Under the pieces are notes generated by a model that ran no database searches, was not told the origin of the DNA, and saw nothing but the letters and a program-made list of their open reading frames with translations. Below, piece by piece: positions 1,040-11,723 of a DNA stretch of 53,867 nucleotides. A program made the position numbers and the translations under genes. The DNA lies in the NCBI GenBank assembly GCA_016872675.1, contig VGZG01000015.1, positions 1 to 53,867 of the forward strand, written 5' to 3'. Positions within the stretch are counted from its first letter, which is position 1. Every line of letters begins with the position of its first letter. Origin of the DNA: Planctomycetota bacterium (lineage in GTDB: Bacteria > Planctomycetota > UBA1135 > UBA2386).

Positions 1040-1078
1040 GCATTGGCGTGCCGCGCGCCGCAGCGGCACGATGTCCGG

Positions 1079-1987
1079 ATGCGCCGTCATTTTGCCGCCT
1101 GCCTGCCACTGTGCGCTGCCGCTGTGCCGGCGCAGAACCAGGTGCTCGACGTCGTCGACGGCGAGACGCTGTACCGCGGCGGGTGGCTCGTCAGCTCCAG
1201 CATCGACCTCGACCGCGAGGAGTCGCTGTGGTCCGGCAACCGTCGCATCGACGATCCCGCCCAGCAGCACCGCACGCGCGCGACGACGACGCTCGGCGCG
1301 CAGTACGGCTTGCGCCACGATCTGCAGATCGGCTTCGCCGTCCCCTACGTGAGCGACGACTACGCGTCGCTCGTCGGCGGCTCGCGCATCGAAGGCGTCG
1401 GCGACGTCGAGCTGTTGGCGAAATGGCGGTTCCATCGTTGGGACGCGCCGCGCGTGGCGATCAACACCGCGTTGATCACCTCGTTGTCGCTGCCGACCGG
1501 CGCCAATGACGAGACGGTGGCGGGCGTCGAGCTGTCGCCGGAGCGCCAACCGGGCAGCGGCGGCCTCGATCCGGCGATCGGCGTCGCGATCACGCCCGAG
1601 CCCGGCCGCTGGCGCTTCAACGCCGCGATCCTGCGGCAGCTGCGCCACGACACCGACGGCGACGGCGACCGGCTGGGTTCGTCGTGGTACGGCGAGCTCG
1701 CCGTCGGCAACCGCTTCTGGCTCGAGCCGTATCCGGGGCCGTTCATGCGCCTGGATGCGTTCGCGCACTGGTACGACGAGTCGAACGACCGCCAGGACGG
1801 CGCCGATCTCGCCAACACCGGCACCGAGCGCCTCGCCGTCGGCGGCACCTGGGCGTTCCGGCCGCGGCCGTCGCTAGACTTCCAACTGACCGTCGAGGCC
1901 GTCGTCTGGCGCGACGCCAACGCGAACGCGCAGGGCCAGCTCGACGACGCCTGGTCGGCGCAGTTCGCGATCGGCTATCGTTTCTGA
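1079..1987 (+). CDS. exported beta-barrel-like outer membrane protein (transporter/MetA-like)
   Basis: A 302-residue protein starting at ATG 1079. That start gives a clean signal peptide (MRRHFAACLPLCAAAVPAQ); an upstream TTG at 1043 would add 12 residues that do not fit a signal. The mature part is rich in alternating hydrophobic strands, with phrases such as LQIGFAVPY, GVGDVELLAKWRF and ALITSLSLPTG, and it ends in aromatic FAIGYRF. This is the pattern of the 'transporter/MetA-pathway of phenol degradation' outer-membrane family and similar beta-barrels. No substrate can be assigned. It ends 21 bases before the lipoprotein-like gene at 2009, so the two may be co-transcribed. Confidence 0.6.
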   Translation: MRRHFAACLPLCAAAVPAQNQVLDVVDGETLYRGGWLVSSSIDLDREESLWSGNRRIDDPAQQHRTRATTTLGAQYGLRHDLQIGFAVPYVSDDYASLVGGSRIEGVGDVELLAKWRFHRWDAPRVAINTALITSLSLPTGANDETVAGVELSPERQPGSGGLDPAIGVAITPEPGRWRFNAAILRQLRHDTDGDGDRLGSSWYGELAVGNRFWLEPYPGPFMRLDAFAHWYDESNDRQDGADLANTGTERLAVGGTWAFRPRPSLDFQLTVEAVVWRDANANAQGQLDDAWSAQFAIGYRF

Positions 1988-2008: not shown

Positions 2009-2506
2009 ATGAAGCACAAGCTCCTTCCCGCGTTGTTCGCCGCCTTGGCGCTTGCCGCCTGCCTGCCGCCCGGCGTCGACATCCAGCCGGCGCCGACCGA
2101 CTTCGCGTTCGTCGAGATCCAGTTGCAGGGTTGAACTTGAAACGAGGAACTGCTGGGCCTTCAGCAGTTCTTCGAGAGCCGGTTCGGCTCTACCCCGCAG
2201 ATCGACCTTGATCGCCAGATCTGCCGCGTTCGCATCGAGCGACCGTTGCCGCTCGACCTCCGCGCCATCGCGCGCGGCGTGATCGAGAACAACATGGGCC
2301 TCGGTGGCCTCGAAGTGCGCGTCCGCGGCGAACTCGCCGACGGCACGGCGACGTTCGCCGACACCGGCCAGAAGGTGCCGGTCCATGGCGGGCCGGCGCG
2401 CTCGTCCGAGCCGTGGCTGTGGCTCGAGGCCAAGGACTACGGCAAGGAGCTCGCCGACAAGGCGACGTGGGTAAGGCAGACGCGCGTGCCGACGCTCGGC
2501 CCGTGA
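2009..2506 (+). CDS. lipoprotein reading frame with two in-frame TGA codons (candidate selenoprotein or broken gene)
   Basis: ATG 2009 opens a lipoprotein signal (MKHKLLPALFAALALAAC, lipobox Cys18). The frame meets TGA at 2132-2134, ACT, then TGA at 2138-2140. It then continues in the same frame as clear coding sequence (NEELLGLQQFFESRFG ... VRVRGELADGTATF ... RVPTLGP) to TGA 2504-2506. There is no ATG/GTG between the TGAs and 2246 (only TTG 2246 or CTG 2150), so the downstream part has no obvious start of its own. Both halves share one frame, so no frameshift is involved. A 13-bp hairpin begins three bases after the second TGA, the place where a bacterial SECIS element sits. Options: Sec insertion giving a U-T-U motif, a pseudogene, two base errors, or a 41-residue lipopeptide plus a separate gene. 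The family is not recognised. Confidence 0.45.
2143..2174 (+). promoter_or_regulatory. 13-bp hairpin directly after the double TGA (SECIS-like position)
   Basis: Left arm 2143-2155 pairs with right arm 2162-2174: 13 pairs including one G-U, with nine perfect pairs next to the loop. The six-base loop 2156-2161 is GGCCTT. The stem begins three bases after TGA 2138-2140, and the loop is 21 bases beyond the first TGA (2132-2134). Known bacterial SECIS hairpins lie immediately 3' of the UGA and carry G at the start of the apical loop. The arms also encode plausible protein, so chance pairing or a weak attenuator without a T-tract cannot be excluded. Confidence 0.4.
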
Positions 2507-6233: not shown

Positions 6234-6300
6234 GTGGTTTTGAGGGGGTAAATAGTGGGTGTAGCGTGGTAAAAAGTGGTTGATCAGTGGGTTTGTGTGG
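6234..6300 (+). repeat. seven-copy helically phased GTGG array, probable MraZ operator
   Basis: GTGG begins at 6234, 6255, 6266, 6276, 6287 and 6297, with a GGGG variant at 6244 filling the one gap. Spacings are 10, 11, 11, 10, 11 and 10 bases, about one helical turn each, so every copy is on the same DNA face. MraZ is known to bind tandem TGGG/GTGG-type repeats with about 10-base period upstream of its own operon (three copies in E. coli). The array ends 49 bases before mraZ and overlaps the candidate promoter, which fits autoregulation of the dcw cluster. Confidence 0.8.
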
Positions 6301-6307
6301 TTAGATT
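6280..6307 (+). promoter_or_regulatory. candidate sigma70 promoter of mraZ / dcw cluster
   Basis: TTGATC (6280-6285), a 16-base spacer and TAGATT (6302-6307), each 4/6 to consensus, predict a start near 6314 and a ~35-base leader. The last two GTGG repeats lie inside the spacer, so MraZ binding should block RNA polymerase. Assigned by eye. Confidence 0.5.
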
Positions 6308-6349
6308 CCGGCGCGACACGGGGGCGGCAGCTCCCCCAACCCCGCCGGC

Positions 6350-6826
6350 ATGACCTCCTACTTCGGCAGCTCGGAGCACACCCTGGATGACAAGAGCAGG
6401 CTCGTCCTGCCCGGTCGCATCCTGGATGCCGTCGCCAAGAACGTATGGCAGTTCCATCTCACGGCGGGGCTGGATCGCTGCCTCCTCCTGCACGACAGCC
6501 AGGGGTTTCAGGAACTCGTCGCGCGGATCGGCAAAGCCGTGCCAGGCAGCCGAGCCCATCGGGCGCTCTGCCGGCGGTTCCTGGGGCACTCCGTGGAGGT
6601 CGAGCCTGACGGCAACCGGCGCATTCGCATTCCGGAGCCGTTGCTCAAGTACGCGGGGCTCGCGGCGAGCCAGGCGGTGGTCCTCGTCGGCGCCGGCCGG
6701 GTCATGGAGATCTGGTCGCCTGCCAACCTGGACAACGTCCTTGCCGACGCGACCCCCGAGGAAGAGTCGCTCTTTGCCAGTCTGGTCAGTCCTGTCGAGC
6801 CGTCCGCGGCCACGAACAGGACCTGA
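6350..6826 (+). CDS. mraZ: transcriptional regulator MraZ
   Basis: 158 residues. Two SpoVT/AbrB-like swapped-hairpin domains are present, both with the DNA-contacting DxxxR motif: DDKSR (EHTLDDKSRLVLPGR, residues ~9-22) and DGNRR (PDGNRRIRIPEPLLKYAGL). Further family signatures are TAGLDRCLLLHD and VVLVGAGRVMEIW. MraZ forms ring-shaped octamers that bind direct repeats and control the dcw operon; it heads this cluster as in most bacteria. The GTGG array upstream is its likely target. The sequence is a little longer than usual (about 145-152) because of a polar C-terminal tail. Confidence 0.95.
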   Translation: MTSYFGSSEHTLDDKSRLVLPGRILDAVAKNVWQFHLTAGLDRCLLLHDSQGFQELVARIGKAVPGSRAHRALCRRFLGHSVEVEPDGNRRIRIPEPLLKYAGLAASQAVVLVGAGRVMEIWSPANLDNVLADATPEEESLFASLVSPVEPSAATNRT

Positions 6827-6907
6827 GCGTTGCGCGTTCGTGTCGGCGCGGTCCCGGTCAGGGCCCGAGTCCGATTGCTGCTGTCGGGTGGTCAAGGGAA
6901 GTAGCAA

Positions 6908-7858
6908 GTGGACGAACCGAGCACGAAGGCTAGCGACGCGGGACGGTCCGGGAACAGTCAGCCCGTGCATCGTCCCGTGTTGCTGCGGGAGGTCGTCGAC
7001 CTCCTGGCGCTGCGCGAGGGCCTGGTGGTGGTGGATGGGACGGTCGGGGCCGGTGGGCACGCTCGGGCGATCGTGCCGCACATCGGACCGACCGGGATCT
7101 TGGCGGGGTTGGACCGGGACAGCGAGATCCTGGAGTTGGCGCGGGCGGCCTTGGCGGAAGCCTCGGCCGCCGGCGCCAACTCCAGGGTCTCGCTGCACCA
7201 CTGTGCGCACTCCCAGATGCACGAAGCGTTGGCGTCGATCGGTCAGTCGCGCTGCGATCGTGTGTTGCTCGATCTGGGGGTGAGTTCCCTGCAACTCGAC
7301 CGTCCGGAACGTGGGTTCTCGTTCATGGCCGATGGGCCGTTGGACATGCGGATGGACAAGTCGGCGCCGGTTTCGGCCGCCGATTGGCTCGCCGTCGTCG
7401 GCGAGCGCGAGCTGGCGGACGTGATCTTCCAGCTCGGCGACGAGCGTCACAGCCGCCGCATCGCGCGGGCGATCGTCGACGCGCGTCGCCGCGCCCCGAT
7501 CACCCGCACCGGCCAGCTCGCCGAGCTCGTCCGCGCGGCCCTGCCGGCGGCGGCGCGCCACGGTCGCATCCATCCGGCCACGCGCACGTTCCAGGCGATC
7601 CGCATGCACGTGAACGACGAGCTCGGCGAACTGGTGCGCGGTCTCGAGGCGGCGCACGCCTGTCTCCGGCCGGGCGGTCGCCTGTGCGTGATCACGTTTC
7701 ATTCGCTCGAGGACCGCGTCGTGAAGCACTGGCTGCGCGAGCGTTTCGACGTCGTCACCAAGAAGCCCGTCGTCGGGATGCCCGACGAGGTCGCTGACAA
7801 TCCGCGCGCCCGCAGCGCCAAGCTGCGTTGCGGGGTGCGCCGGGAGGACGCCGCATGA
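6908..7858 (+). CDS. rsmH: 16S rRNA (cytosine1402-N4)-methyltransferase RsmH
   Basis: 316 residues from GTG 6908, which has an AAGGGAA ribosome binding site seven bases upstream. Signatures: HRPVLLREVVDLL, the SAM-binding loop DGTVGAGGHARAI, LDLGVSSLQLDRPERGFSF, GPLDMRMD, the THPATRTFQAIRM-like HPATRTFQAIRMHVNDEL, and ITFHSLEDRVVK. The enzyme N4-methylates C1402 in the 16S rRNA decoding centre. Canonical second gene of dcw; its TGA overlaps the ATG of the FtsL-like gene (ATGA). Confidence 0.96.
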   Translation: MDEPSTKASDAGRSGNSQPVHRPVLLREVVDLLALREGLVVVDGTVGAGGHARAIVPHIGPTGILAGLDRDSEILELARAALAEASAAGANSRVSLHHCAHSQMHEALASIGQSRCDRVLLDLGVSSLQLDRPERGFSFMADGPLDMRMDKSAPVSAADWLAVVGERELADVIFQLGDERHSRRIARAIVDARRRAPITRTGQLAELVRAALPAAARHGRIHPATRTFQAIRMHVNDELGELVRGLEAAHACLRPGGRLCVITFHSLEDRVVKHWLRERFDVVTKKPVVGMPDEVADNPRARSAKLRCGVRREDAA

Positions 7859-8109
7859 GGTGGATGCTCGCCGGCCTGTTGTTCGCCCTGGCGGTCGCGT
7901 TGGCGATCTTCACCGCCGCCCTGCGCGCCGAGAACGCGCGCGTTCGGCACTGCGTCGAGCGTGAGTACCGCGAGGTCTGGGACCGCGTCGTCGAGTTCAA
8001 GCGGCTGTCGATCGAGAAGCTGTCCGAGGCGTCGCCACAGCGGCTCGCCGCGGCCCACTGGCGGCATCTGCGCGCCGAGGCGACGCGGCAGGAGGCCCGC
8101 AGGCAATGA
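7855..8109 (+). CDS. ftsL: FtsL-like bitopic division protein
   Basis: 84 residues: one N-terminal TM helix (MLAGLLFALAVALAIFTAAL), then a charged helical region suited to a coiled coil (RAENARVRHCVEREYREVWDRVVE in two blocks). It starts at ATG 7855 inside the rsmH stop (ATGA) and ends at 8109 overlapping the ftsI ATG. Size, topology and position between rsmH and ftsI match FtsL, the divisome coiled-coil subunit that works with FtsB/FtsQ and FtsWI. Sequence similarity to named FtsL proteins cannot be judged by eye, so the assignment rests on architecture and synteny. Confidence 0.65.
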   Translation: MRWMLAGLLFALAVALAIFTAALRAENARVRHCVEREYREVWDRVVEFKRLSIEKLSEASPQRLAAAHWRHLRAEATRQEARRQ

Positions 8110-10187
8110 CCATCGACAAAGGCGAGTTGCGGCGCGTTCGCGCCGCCTTCGTGCTGCTGGGCTGCGTGCCGTTGTTCCTCGCCGGCTGGTTCGGCTACGT
8201 CCAGGTCGGCCAGGCGGGCGAGCTCGAGCGCGCCGGTCGTGCGCCGCTGCGCCTCGTGCCGGCCACGGCCGACTCGCAGGGCTCGCGCCAGGAGAAGGTG
8301 CCAGCGCCCCGCGGCACGATCGTCGATCGTCACGGCAACCTGCTGGCGCTCGATTGCGAGACCTACGAGATCCGCGCCGACGTCCGCGTGCCGCTGGGCG
8401 TGCGCGATGACGTCGGCGAGTACTGCGCGTGGTTGGCCAAGGTGCTCGACGCGCTGGCGCTGGCGCTGGTCGCCGATCCGGACCTCGCGGACCGCGAGGA
8501 CGTGCGCAAGCGCCACGTCGAGCGGCTGGCGAAGACGATGCAGCGCGAACTGCGCACCGGCGAATTGCCGGCGACGGGGCCGGTGCCGCCGCGCCACCCG
8601 GGCCGCGCCGACGTGCTGGTCGCCGGCGGCGTCGACTCGCTGGCGATCGTCGAGGCGCTGCGCGCGCTGGCCGCCGAGCGGTGGTTTGGCAACGTCACGC
8701 TGCACTTCTTGCGCTCCTACCAGCGTTCCTACCCGGAGCGCGACTTGACCTACGGGCTCGTCGGCCACACCGACACCAAGTGGCGCAAGAGCGCCGCCGG
8801 CGCGTCGTGGCTCGAGACCACGGGCGTCTGCGGCCTCGAGGCGATGGCCGAGTTGCGGCCCGATCCGAGCGGCGCGCGGCCGTTCCTGGCCGACGGCCGC
8901 GGCCGGCCGTACTTCCTGGCGCCGATCAGCGACGTGCCGCTGCCCAACGTCCTGCACTCGACGATTGACGTCGACCTGCAGCGCATCGCCGTCAAGGAAC
9001 TGGCGGCGCAGGCTGAGGCCGGCGCGCGCGAGGGCAAGGTGACCACGCCCAAGTGGGGCGCGATGGTCCTGGTCGAGATGGCGACTGGCGACGTGCTGGC
9101 GGCGGCGTCCTGGCACCGCGACGAGAAGAACCTCCAGGCGGCGTCGTTCACGCCCTACCAGAGCCTGTGCGAGCCCGGCTCGGTCGTGAAGCCGCTGGTG
9201 CTCGCCTATGCCTACGAGGCCGGCAAGCTCGACTGGGGCGCGCAGTTCGACTGCGCGCCGGGCAGCGCCGACTACCGCACGCGCATCGCGCACCTTGGCC
9301 GCAGCAAGCCGGTCCGCGACGACCACGACTGCAGCGTCCTCGATGCGCACGGCATCATCACGAACAGCTCGAACATCGGCGCCACCTACGTCGGCCTGAT
9401 GCTCGAGCGCGAGGAGTGGGAGGACTACATGGAGTGCTTTGGCTTCGGCCGGTCGCTCGGGTGGTCCTTGCCGCACGGCAGCCTCGGCGGCACCAACAAG
9501 CGCTCGTTCGCCCGCGACATCCCGGTCCGCTCGTTCAAGGCCAACAGCGCCATTTCATTCAGCTTCGGCTACGAGTTGCAGACCACGACGCTGCAGATGG
9601 CGCGCGCCTACCTGCGCCTGTTCCGCGGTCGCGACGCCCAGTTGCGCGTCTGCCGCGGCGCCGAGGTCGACGGCAAGTGGCAGCCGGCGCCGTCGGGAAT
9701 CGGCGGCCGGGCCTTCCGGCCCGAGGTCACCGACGCCGTGCGCGCCGCGATGATGGACGTCGTCAGCGCCGACCCGAAAGCGACAGGCTTCTACATGCAC
9801 GGCCGCATGTTGAAGGAGTTGGGGATCGATCTGCACGGCGTCGTCGGCGGCAAGACCGGCACGGCGGCGAGCATGATCGGCATTCCTGGTCGCGGCGCAG
9901 TCAACGTGCGCAACGCCAGCTTCGTCGGCTTCCTGCCGGCGGACAATCCGCGGTGGCTCGCGGTCTGCGTGCTGCAGAAGGACGATAGTGCGCGGTTCTA
10001 TGGCGGTAGCTATGCTGCTCCGCCTGTGGTGCGGATGCTGCTCCAGTGCCAGCAACTGGAACGGCGGCGCTTGCAGCGCCAGGAACCTGCGAACGGTGCG
10101 AGCGGTCAGGCTCGCGAGGCCTCCGTAACTCCTGGTGATTCAGGCTGGGGCCACGCGGCCTCAGAGAGCAAGGCATTGGGGCGGTAG
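8106..10187 (+). CDS. ftsI: class B penicillin-binding protein FtsI (PBP3-like)
   Basis: 693 residues. N-terminal TM anchor (VLLGCVPLFLAGWFGYVQVG) and the PBP-dimer start APRGTIVDRHGNLLALD. The transpeptidase domain carries all three catalytic motifs: S359-V-V-K362 (EPGSVVKP), S421-S-N423 (TNSSNIGA) and K583-T-G (GGKTGTAAS). It cross-links septal peptidoglycan in the periplasm with FtsW. It is longer than typical FtsI (~580-600), with a helical insertion around residues 95-175 and a ~45-residue polar tail after the enzyme domain. No PASTA domains. Start and stop overlap or abut neighbours. Confidence 0.93.
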   Translation: MTIDKGELRRVRAAFVLLGCVPLFLAGWFGYVQVGQAGELERAGRAPLRLVPATADSQGSRQEKVPAPRGTIVDRHGNLLALDCETYEIRADVRVPLGVRDDVGEYCAWLAKVLDALALALVADPDLADREDVRKRHVERLAKTMQRELRTGELPATGPVPPRHPGRADVLVAGGVDSLAIVEALRALAAERWFGNVTLHFLRSYQRSYPERDLTYGLVGHTDTKWRKSAAGASWLETTGVCGLEAMAELRPDPSGARPFLADGRGRPYFLAPISDVPLPNVLHSTIDVDLQRIAVKELAAQAEAGAREGKVTTPKWGAMVLVEMATGDVLAAASWHRDEKNLQAASFTPYQSLCEPGSVVKPLVLAYAYEAGKLDWGAQFDCAPGSADYRTRIAHLGRSKPVRDDHDCSVLDAHGIITNSSNIGATYVGLMLEREEWEDYMECFGFGRSLGWSLPHGSLGGTNKRSFARDIPVRSFKANSAISFSFGYELQTTTLQMARAYLRLFRGRDAQLRVCRGAEVDGKWQPAPSGIGGRAFRPEVTDAVRAAMMDVVSADPKATGFYMHGRMLKELGIDLHGVVGGKTGTAASMIGIPGRGAVNVRNASFVGFLPADNPRWLAVCVLQKDDSARFYGGSYAAPPVVRMLLQCQQLERRRLQRQEPANGASGQAREASVTPGDSGWGHAASESKALGR

Positions 10188-11723
10188 ATGACTGAACTGG
10201 CTTATCCGTCCGGACTCCCGTCCGGCCAGGGCTTCGTCCGTTTGCGCGAGATCCGCGACTGCTTGCAGCCGCGAGAGCTCCTTCGTTGGCGGGATCTCGC
10301 CATCGACGGCCTGTGCTTCGACAGCAAGGAAGCGCGCAGCGGCAATCTGTTCTTCGCCATTCGCGGCGCCAAGAGCGACGGCGCGCTGTTCGCGCAGCAG
10401 GCGGTCGCCAAGGGCGCCGTCGCCGTCGTCGCCGAGGAACCGCTGGCCCTGCCGGTGCCGGTGCTCGTCGTGCCGAGCGCGCGCGCCGCGCTGGCCGACG
10501 CTGCCCGCTACTACTATCGCGATCCGTCGCGCGCCGTGTCGGTCATCGGCATCACCGGCACCAACGGCAAGACGACGACGGCGCACCTGGTGCGCGCCTG
10601 CCTGCAGGCCGATCGCCGGCAGGTCGGCCTGCTCGGCACCATCGCCTACGAGTTCGGCGGCCGCCGCATCCCGGCGTCCAACACCACTCCCGACCCGGTG
10701 CGTCTGCAGGGCTATCTGCGCGAGATGGCGGACCGCTACGCCAGCGCCTGCGTGATGGAGGTCAGCAGCCACAGCCTCGACCAGGACCGCGTCCGCGGCG
10801 TGCGCTTCGCGACGGCGGTGTTCACCAACCTGACGCATGACCACCTCGACTATCACGGCACGATGGCGGCCTACAGCGAGGCCAAGTCGCGGTTGTTCAA
10901 GAGCCTCGCGCCCGGCTCGACGGCGGTGATCAACTGCGACGACCCGGCCGCGCCGCTGATGGCGGAGGCCTGCGGCCGCGGCGTGCGGACGATCTGGTAC
11001 GGGCTGTCGTCCGAGGCCGACGTCCGCGCTGAGAACCTGCAGCTCGGGCCCGACGGCACCCGCTTCACCCTGGTGATGCCCAACGGCGCCGTCGAGATGT
11101 TCCTGCGCCTCGTCGGCATGCACAACGTCTACAACGCGCTCGCGGCGGCGGCGGTGGCGATCTCGCTGGGCGTCAGCGATCTGACGGTCGCCTCGGCGCT
11201 CGAGGACGCGCGCGCGGTGCCCGGCCGGCTCGAACTGGTCGAGGCGCCGATCGGCGCCGGCGGCAAGGTCCGCACGTTCGTCGACTACGCGCACACGCCC
11301 GACGCGCTGGAGAAGGTCTGCGCCACGCTCGCCGAGCTCGCCGAGGGCAAGCTGCACGTCGTGTTTGGCTGTGGCGGCGACCGCGACCGCAGCAAGCGCG
11401 CGCCGATGGCCGCTGCGGTGGCGCGCCACGCGCACAGCGCCTACCTGACCAGCGACAACCCGCGCAGCGAAGACCCCGAGGCGATCCTCGACGAAGTCCA
11501 GAAGGGCCTCGCCGACGCCCCGATCGACGTGCGACGCATCGTCGACCGCGCCGAGGCGATTCGCGCCGCGGTCGGCTGCGCCGCGCCCGGCGACACCGTG
11601 CTGATCGCCGGCAAGGGCCACGAGACCTACCAGATCTTCAAGGACTGCGTCGTGCCGTTCGACGATCGGCTCGAAGCTGCGCGCGCGCTCGCAGCGAGGG
11701 AGGCGGGATGGTTGCCCCGATGA
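10188..11723 (+). CDS. murE: UDP-MurNAc-L-Ala-D-Glu:meso-DAP ligase MurE
   Basis: 511 residues; ATG 10188 follows the ftsI stop with no gap. The N-terminal substrate domain (LFFAIRGAKSDGALFA) precedes the ATP loop GITGTNGKTTT (G121-T131), then EVSSHSLDQDRVRGV and the YHGTMAAYSEAKSRLF carbamoyl-lysine region. The C-terminal domain has DNPRSEDP (D423-R426). DNPR is the signature of enzymes adding meso-diaminopimelate rather than lysine. The enzyme acts in the cytoplasm as the third amino-acid addition to the peptidoglycan stem. Confidence 0.96.
   Translation: MTELAYPSGLPSGQGFVRLREIRDCLQPRELLRWRDLAIDGLCFDSKEARSGNLFFAIRGAKSDGALFAQQAVAKGAVAVVAEEPLALPVPVLVVPSARAALADAARYYYRDPSRAVSVIGITGTNGKTTTAHLVRACLQADRRQVGLLGTIAYEFGGRRIPASNTTPDPVRLQGYLREMADRYASACVMEVSSHSLDQDRVRGVRFATAVFTNLTHDHLDYHGTMAAYSEAKSRLFKSLAPGSTAVINCDDPAAPLMAEACGRGVRTIWYGLSSEADVRAENLQLGPDGTRFTLVMPNGAVEMFLRLVGMHNVYNALAAAAVAISLGVSDLTVASALEDARAVPGRLELVEAPIGAGGKVRTFVDYAHTPDALEKVCATLAELAEGKLHVVFGCGGDRDRSKRAPMAAAVARHAHSAYLTSDNPRSEDPEAILDEVQKGLADAPIDVRRIVDRAEAIRAAVGCAAPGDTVLIAGKGHETYQIFKDCVVPFDDRLEAARALAAREAGWLPR

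Follow-up and report, generated by a model that had tools for sequence, protein, structure and literature searches.

Our analysis revealed that the window, i.e. the whole stretch of 53,867 nucleotides from a Planctomycetota bacterium, encodes a small lipoprotein whose reading frame is crossed by two TGA codons only one codon apart, and that this double TGA is kept across a family of planctomycetal proteins. To judge from sequence comparison, both TGAs are almost certainly recoded to selenocysteine (Sec). In the best reading of the data, these UxU proteins form a new family of selenoproteins that descends from HMA proteins and carries a novel Sec motif. The larger picture, namely a phylum-wide family in which an HMA site would have been rebuilt as an invariant Sec-x-Sec, in which one hairpin would serve two UGAs, and whose members would be the periplasmic half of an undescribed two-gene outer-membrane unit for soft metals (or selenium), seems to us, taken as a whole, about evenly balanced between right and wrong.

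The features of the locus are collected in Table 1. An earlier note on this DNA, made from the letters alone, had proposed a lipoprotein signal frame from 2009 which runs into TGA-ACT-TGA at 2132-2140 and remains open to 2506, and all of these coordinates are confirmed, together with the ATG at 2009 and the lipobox Cys18, the latter being invariant in both of our alignments (A1 and A2). As read from the window sequence, the codon between the two TGAs is ACT (2135-2137), and the frame closes with a TGA stop at 2504-2506. What that note did not contain is the phylum-wide spread of the family, its apparent HMA/MerP-like origin and the putative two-gene unit with an outer-membrane barrel.

Table 1. 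Features of the UxU locus in the window
Feature	Position	Strand	Remarks
Outer-membrane beta-barrel gene, upstream	1043..1987	+	likely true start ATG 1079; 21 nt from stop to lipoprotein ATG
UxU selenolipoprotein CDS (putative)	2009..2506	+	165 aa, two Sec; MKHKLLPALFAALALAACLPPG...EIQLQGUTUNEELLGLQQFF...; 42 homologues
Signal peptide, lipoprotein type	2009..2062	+	lipobox Cys18 (LAAC), codon 2060-2062; Leu at +2
HMA-like beta-alpha-beta-beta-alpha-beta domain (predicted)	2102..2323	+	about residues 32-105; hhalign, AlphaFold2, Foldseek
First in-frame TGA, predicted Sec42	2132..2134	+	invariant in 42 homologues; aligned to Met of HMA GMxC
Second in-frame TGA, predicted Sec44	2138..2140	+	invariant; aligned to first Cys of HMA GMxCxxC
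Candidate bSECIS hairpin	2143..2174	+	14-bp stem; apical loop GCCT (or GGCCTT); RNAfold, covariation, low synonymous change
C-terminal extension	2324..2503	+	about residues 106-165; conservation poor

With the window protein as query, homologues were found in 13 of 60 related genomes, every one with exactly two in-frame TGAs, and the family was then extended over the order and the phylum by a profile of these and subsequently by a profile of 21 sequences. This yielded 41 further homologues, all in Planctomycetota, whose identity to the window protein ranges over about 20-86%; two of them (L032 in G001 and L033 in G045) come from Planctomycetota MAGs, one of which is assigned to the genus of the window. 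No relatives were found in the plasmid collection. When the loci were inspected one by one, each of the 42 UxU homologues, that of the host among them, was seen to have TGA-NNN-TGA in the identical alignment columns, and the motif of the family is U-[T/I/V]-U. Two subfamilies can be distinguished, one with GUTU[NS]EELLGL, to which the window protein belongs, and the other with U[I/V/T]UNDKAFGL. Most members of the second subfamily (L046-L051, L072 and L074-L080) add a C-terminal CxxC such as CADC, CEDC or CSTC, which the subfamily of the window does not have. Both Sec positions and the lipobox Cys are among the eight invariant columns of the 21-sequence alignment, and no UxU member in the 42 genomes has Cys at either Sec position. 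As the pair is invariant and no Cys version was seen inside the clade, standard methods based on Cys homologues would likely miss this family. Homologues with Cys-x-Cys or U-x-U at the site had been named in the earlier note as support for Sec; in fact UxU is present in 42 of 42, and more remote homologues carry Cys or Sec at the aligned site. Moreover, one locus (L094 in G292, bases 1-324) has three in-frame TGAs (UTUNDU), the third Sec falling where HMA proteins have their second Cys; it joins the UxU and UxxU types and is possibly an intermediate between them. Another locus (L104, G345:C22:1171618-1172067), whose genome has a UxU copy besides, is a divergent paralogue that retains one TGA (HPULSHN) and has additional Cys.

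The interruption of the frame by two TGAs could by itself be read as a decayed gene or a sequencing error, i.e. two nonsense substitutions in an ordinary lipoprotein, and this interruption is all that speaks for such a reading. We give it almost no credence, since the identical two TGAs recur in 42 genomes, including the separately deposited MAGs JADCJE01 and SHNF01, and since purifying selection persists downstream; it is refuted by the conservation of both TGAs. When close relatives are compared, dN/dS downstream of the TGAs is about 0.3, for example dN 0.083 and dS 0.249 for the window against G001, and dN 0.242 and dS 0.853 for L020 against L023. It might also be supposed that two proteins are made, translation of a short lipopeptide stopping at the first TGA and starting afresh further downstream, as an ORF with a TTG start at 2246 does exist. 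This TTG is the first in-frame start candidate past the TGAs; the earlier note had stated that no ATG or GTG offers a restart before 2246. Re-initiation was rejected as extremely improbable, because conservation peaks right across the TGAs (GUTUNEELLGL), ahead of any start codon, because the starts of the downstream ORF vary between species, and because the HMA domain would be split in two.

The reading as Sec is consistent with the gene content of the host, a Planctomycetota MAG of 3.58 Mb and 95% completeness of which the window is contig 15. The selA, selB, selC and selD genes, proposed in the earlier note as the thing to look for in the genome, are all present outside the window: selB scores 343.5 bits (cut-off 242), selA 447.5 bits (cut-off 268) and tRNA-Sec, with anticodon tca, 72.7 bits, while selD adjoins selA, lying directly after it. 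Sec decoding is therefore available in this organism. The host selD is itself a selenoprotein gene with one in-frame TGA (L131, G000:C131:1270-2190, with selA at 35-1216). Among the 42 UxU genomes, selA is detected in 39, and the three without it are incomplete, two at 73-76% and one at 87%. The presence of selA does not separate genomes with the UxU gene from those without, because nearly all genomes of the order carry selA. A genome-wide reassignment of TGA, e.g. to Trp or Gly, would equally let the in-frame TGA be read here, but we regard it as most improbable: this gene and the upstream barrel gene both end in a TGA stop, the Sec machinery (tRNA-Sec, selA, selB and selD) is present, and Cys occupies the aligned position in remote homologues. 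Code reassignment was rejected on these grounds.

The candidate SECIS lies immediately behind the second TGA. The earlier note had described here a 13-bp hairpin with a loop starting in GG; the hairpin itself stands, but the stem has 14 bp (2143-2156/2161-2174, uninterrupted) with the loop GCCT, the described form being the same hairpin with its apical G.U pair opened. RNAfold gives -22.3 kcal/mol over 42 nt. Of 21,530 42-mers sampled from both strands of the window, 9 contain a stem of this length, and some of these 9 are the hairpin itself; together with the shared TGA-NNN-TGA, this goes beyond chance. The loop is separated by 16 nt from the second TGA and by 22 nt from the first, so that one hairpin could serve both, and the hairpin fits the published bacterial SECIS model (PMC13188914). 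In 19 sequences of the first subfamily, the covariation score is 0.295 against 0.161 +/- 0.020 in shuffles, 90.4% of cells are paired against 32-54% in slid controls, and four stem pairs show changes in both strands of the stem (18 cells). Thus eight sequences have GAG...CTC in place of GAA...TTC, a silent Glu change accompanied by a first-base change in the partner codon. Moreover, the synonymous difference in the 15 codons after the TGAs, compared with the rest of the gene, is 0.107/0.223, 0.103/0.557, 0/0.276 and 0.111/0.501 in four close pairs (the pair with about 0.10 against 0.56 being L020/L023), as expected if the RNA is constrained too.

These two kinds of test are more telling than a codon-preserving energy shuffle, which is only modestly significant for the individual sequences (mean z -1.9 and -1.2); part of the reason is that its pooled codon usage came from those same constrained sites. 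A match to a loose bSECIS consensus is by itself weak and unspecific, because it is obtained at 34% of random window positions, and 11 of the 41 members do not show it. In the second subfamily the stem is shifted, shorter and less regular, and the support is weaker. Rfam recognises no RNA family in the window, as expected of a SECIS. On the whole, these comparisons show that the hairpin after the second TGA is constrained at the RNA level, in keeping with a bacterial SECIS. The proposal in the earlier note of Sec read-through at U-T-U in a secreted lipoprotein is thus backed from three sides, the sel genes, the UxU homologues and the constrained hairpin.

As for the protein itself, neither NCBIfam (June 2026) nor Pfam has a model that matches the window UxU protein, and a PDB sequence search with this protein or its profile returned nothing usable. 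In particular, the window protein and 13 relatives of alignment A1 do not reach the gathering threshold of Pfam HMA (PF00403), the metal-binding motif GMxCxxC of HMA is absent from the window protein, and the cut-off of MerP TIGR02052 (92.55 bits) is not reached. Profile search nevertheless leads beyond the UxU clade to remote homologues that are of HMA type, with CxxC, CxxU or UxxU, for example GMVCNLC in L096, GMVCNLU in L095 and GVTCPIU in L097, and ten of them have UxxU, such as GVTUPIU in L099. L095 matches Pfam HMA at 1.8e-10, and hhalign aligns the UxU profile to it at 96.2% (E 2.7e-9, 76 columns), placing Sec42 on the Met of GMxC, Sec44 on the first Cys and Glu47 on the second Cys. Sec44 is aligned with Cys in L095, L096 and L097, whereas Sec42 is aligned with Met or Val and not with Cys. 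UxU proteins have Glu or Lys in place of the second Cys of HMA (GUTUNEE in the window), and the geometry of the site is therefore unlike that of known HMA proteins.

The structural evidence is in line with this homology. AlphaFold2 runs on three sequences give beta-alpha-beta-beta-alpha-beta over residues 33-105 at a mean pLDDT of only 58.7, and with this weak model as query the top Foldseek matches are copper-chaperone HMA domains and MerP (best E 0.034; probability 0.92-1.00 and E > 0.03 for the best eight). In the tree, UxU proteins stand apart from UxxU/CxxU proteins, where the deep forks are weakly supported and several branches are long. Altogether, from profile alignment and model, the UxU family looks like a derivative of the HMA/MerP-like metal-binding fold.

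The neighbour just upstream of the lipoprotein gene encodes an outer-membrane beta-barrel. Relatives of the barrel match Pfam PF13557 (E 2.5e-8), while the copy in the window has no Pfam match. The barrel lies directly upstream in 40 of the 41 testable UxU loci, the exception being L031; L094 was left out of this count as its contig begins too close to the gene. Most UxxU/CxxU/CxxC loci (L081, L095-L099, L101, L102, L106 and L108-L110) have the barrel upstream as well, but it was not found there in L100 or L105. As the barrel is kept beside UxU, UxxU, CxxU and CxxC members alike, barrel and HMA-like lipoprotein constitute a lasting two-gene unit, within which the Sec content of the HMA part varies. 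No other neighbour is conserved beyond genus-level synteny; specifically, neither a metal-resistance gene beside the gene pair nor a thioredoxin or disulfide reductase next to the UxU gene is conserved. Downstream in the window (6300-10200) are genes that by eye resemble mraZ, mraW and PBP/FtsI, with synteny only in close relatives.

The explanation we favour, with fair confidence, is that the UxU selenolipoprotein captures a soft metal together with the outer-membrane barrel. SelB and Sec-tRNA would insert Sec at both UGAs of UGA-NNN-UGA, both insertions being directed by the one hairpin directly after the second UGA, and the product would be a lipid-anchored periplasmic selenoprotein. Its UxU pair would lie in the metal-site loop at the N-terminus of helix 1 in a ferredoxin-type fold like that of HMA/MerP, where the two selenolates would most probably serve to trap a periplasmic soft metal ion (Hg2+, Cu+, Ag+ or Cd2+); metal binding as such we consider reasonably probable. 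The barrel, presumably co-transcribed and interacting with the lipoprotein, may provide an entry or exit path, or the two may act as a sensor or scavenger at the outer membrane. The main rival is that the UxU selenoprotein is genuine but works in thiol/selenol redox chemistry, as a 1,3-diselenide reductase or oxidase or in the handling of peroxide or selenium, and does not bind metal. Redox proteins are indeed the majority of known selenoproteins (reviewed in PMC13188914), UxU resembles the CxU/UxC redox motifs in Table 1 of that review, and the downstream CxxC of many second-subfamily members could exchange with the Sec pair. However, fold and homology are those of metal-binding HMA proteins and not of thioredoxin, and the conserved redox neighbours are lacking, so we hold a redox role to be possible rather than probable. 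Soft-metal capture thus remains our preferred reading.

Compared with known systems, the nearest is NF041115 (UxxU_metal_bind, a 'putative mercuric reductase' selenoprotein), likewise a small domain of HMA type whose metal-binding loop holds two Sec. Its motif is UxxU, whereas the window protein has UxU, does not match the NF041115 model (cut-off 95 bits), and has a lipid anchor, a C-terminal extension and a barrel partner; the UxxU/CxxU/CxxC relatives found herein resemble NF041115 weakly, with E from 0.003 to 4e-9, all under its cut-off. With PF00403 HMA proteins (CopZ/Atx1/MerP), the family shares the order of secondary structure, a site loop before helix 1 and profile homology via L095/L096, but has GUxU with Glu/Lys at the second Cys in place of GMxCxxC, and no direct Pfam match. 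MerP (TIGR02052) and MerT_CopZ_Se (NF045683) are periplasmic and HMA-like too, and Sec versions of mercury-transport proteins are known, but the window protein has a UxU motif and a lipid anchor, and no MerT or MerA is seen nearby. The upstream partner is of the PF13557 kind (Phenol_MetA_deg, an outer-membrane 'transporter'), for which we found no description, in the literature searched, of a consistent pairing with an HMA-like selenolipoprotein. An inventory published in 2026 covers 119 selenoprotein families of prokaryotes, those from Haft and Tolstoy 2025 among them; its Table 1 has no UxU entry, and the nearest listed family is the UxxU metal-binding protein NF041115 (PMC13188914).

With the UxU gene, nature provides a case in which the decoding of two UGAs, with a single codon between them, by SelB and one SECIS can be studied, and a single protein family with a single operon partner spans the graded series CxxC, CxxU, UxxU, UxU and UxUxxU. 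The family may also be a candidate for the handling of very soft metals in a phylum that has been little studied. Besides these, two further HMA-like genes on minus strands were observed in genomes that have a UxU protein as well. One (L105 in G112, reverse complement about 561-900) encodes a tandem protein, GMTUPVGUPPRV and GATUVGUPNKV, with four in-frame TGAs in two domains; the other (L107 in G087) encodes a lipoprotein with GMTUGAACPPRV, in which Sec and Cys are four residues apart.
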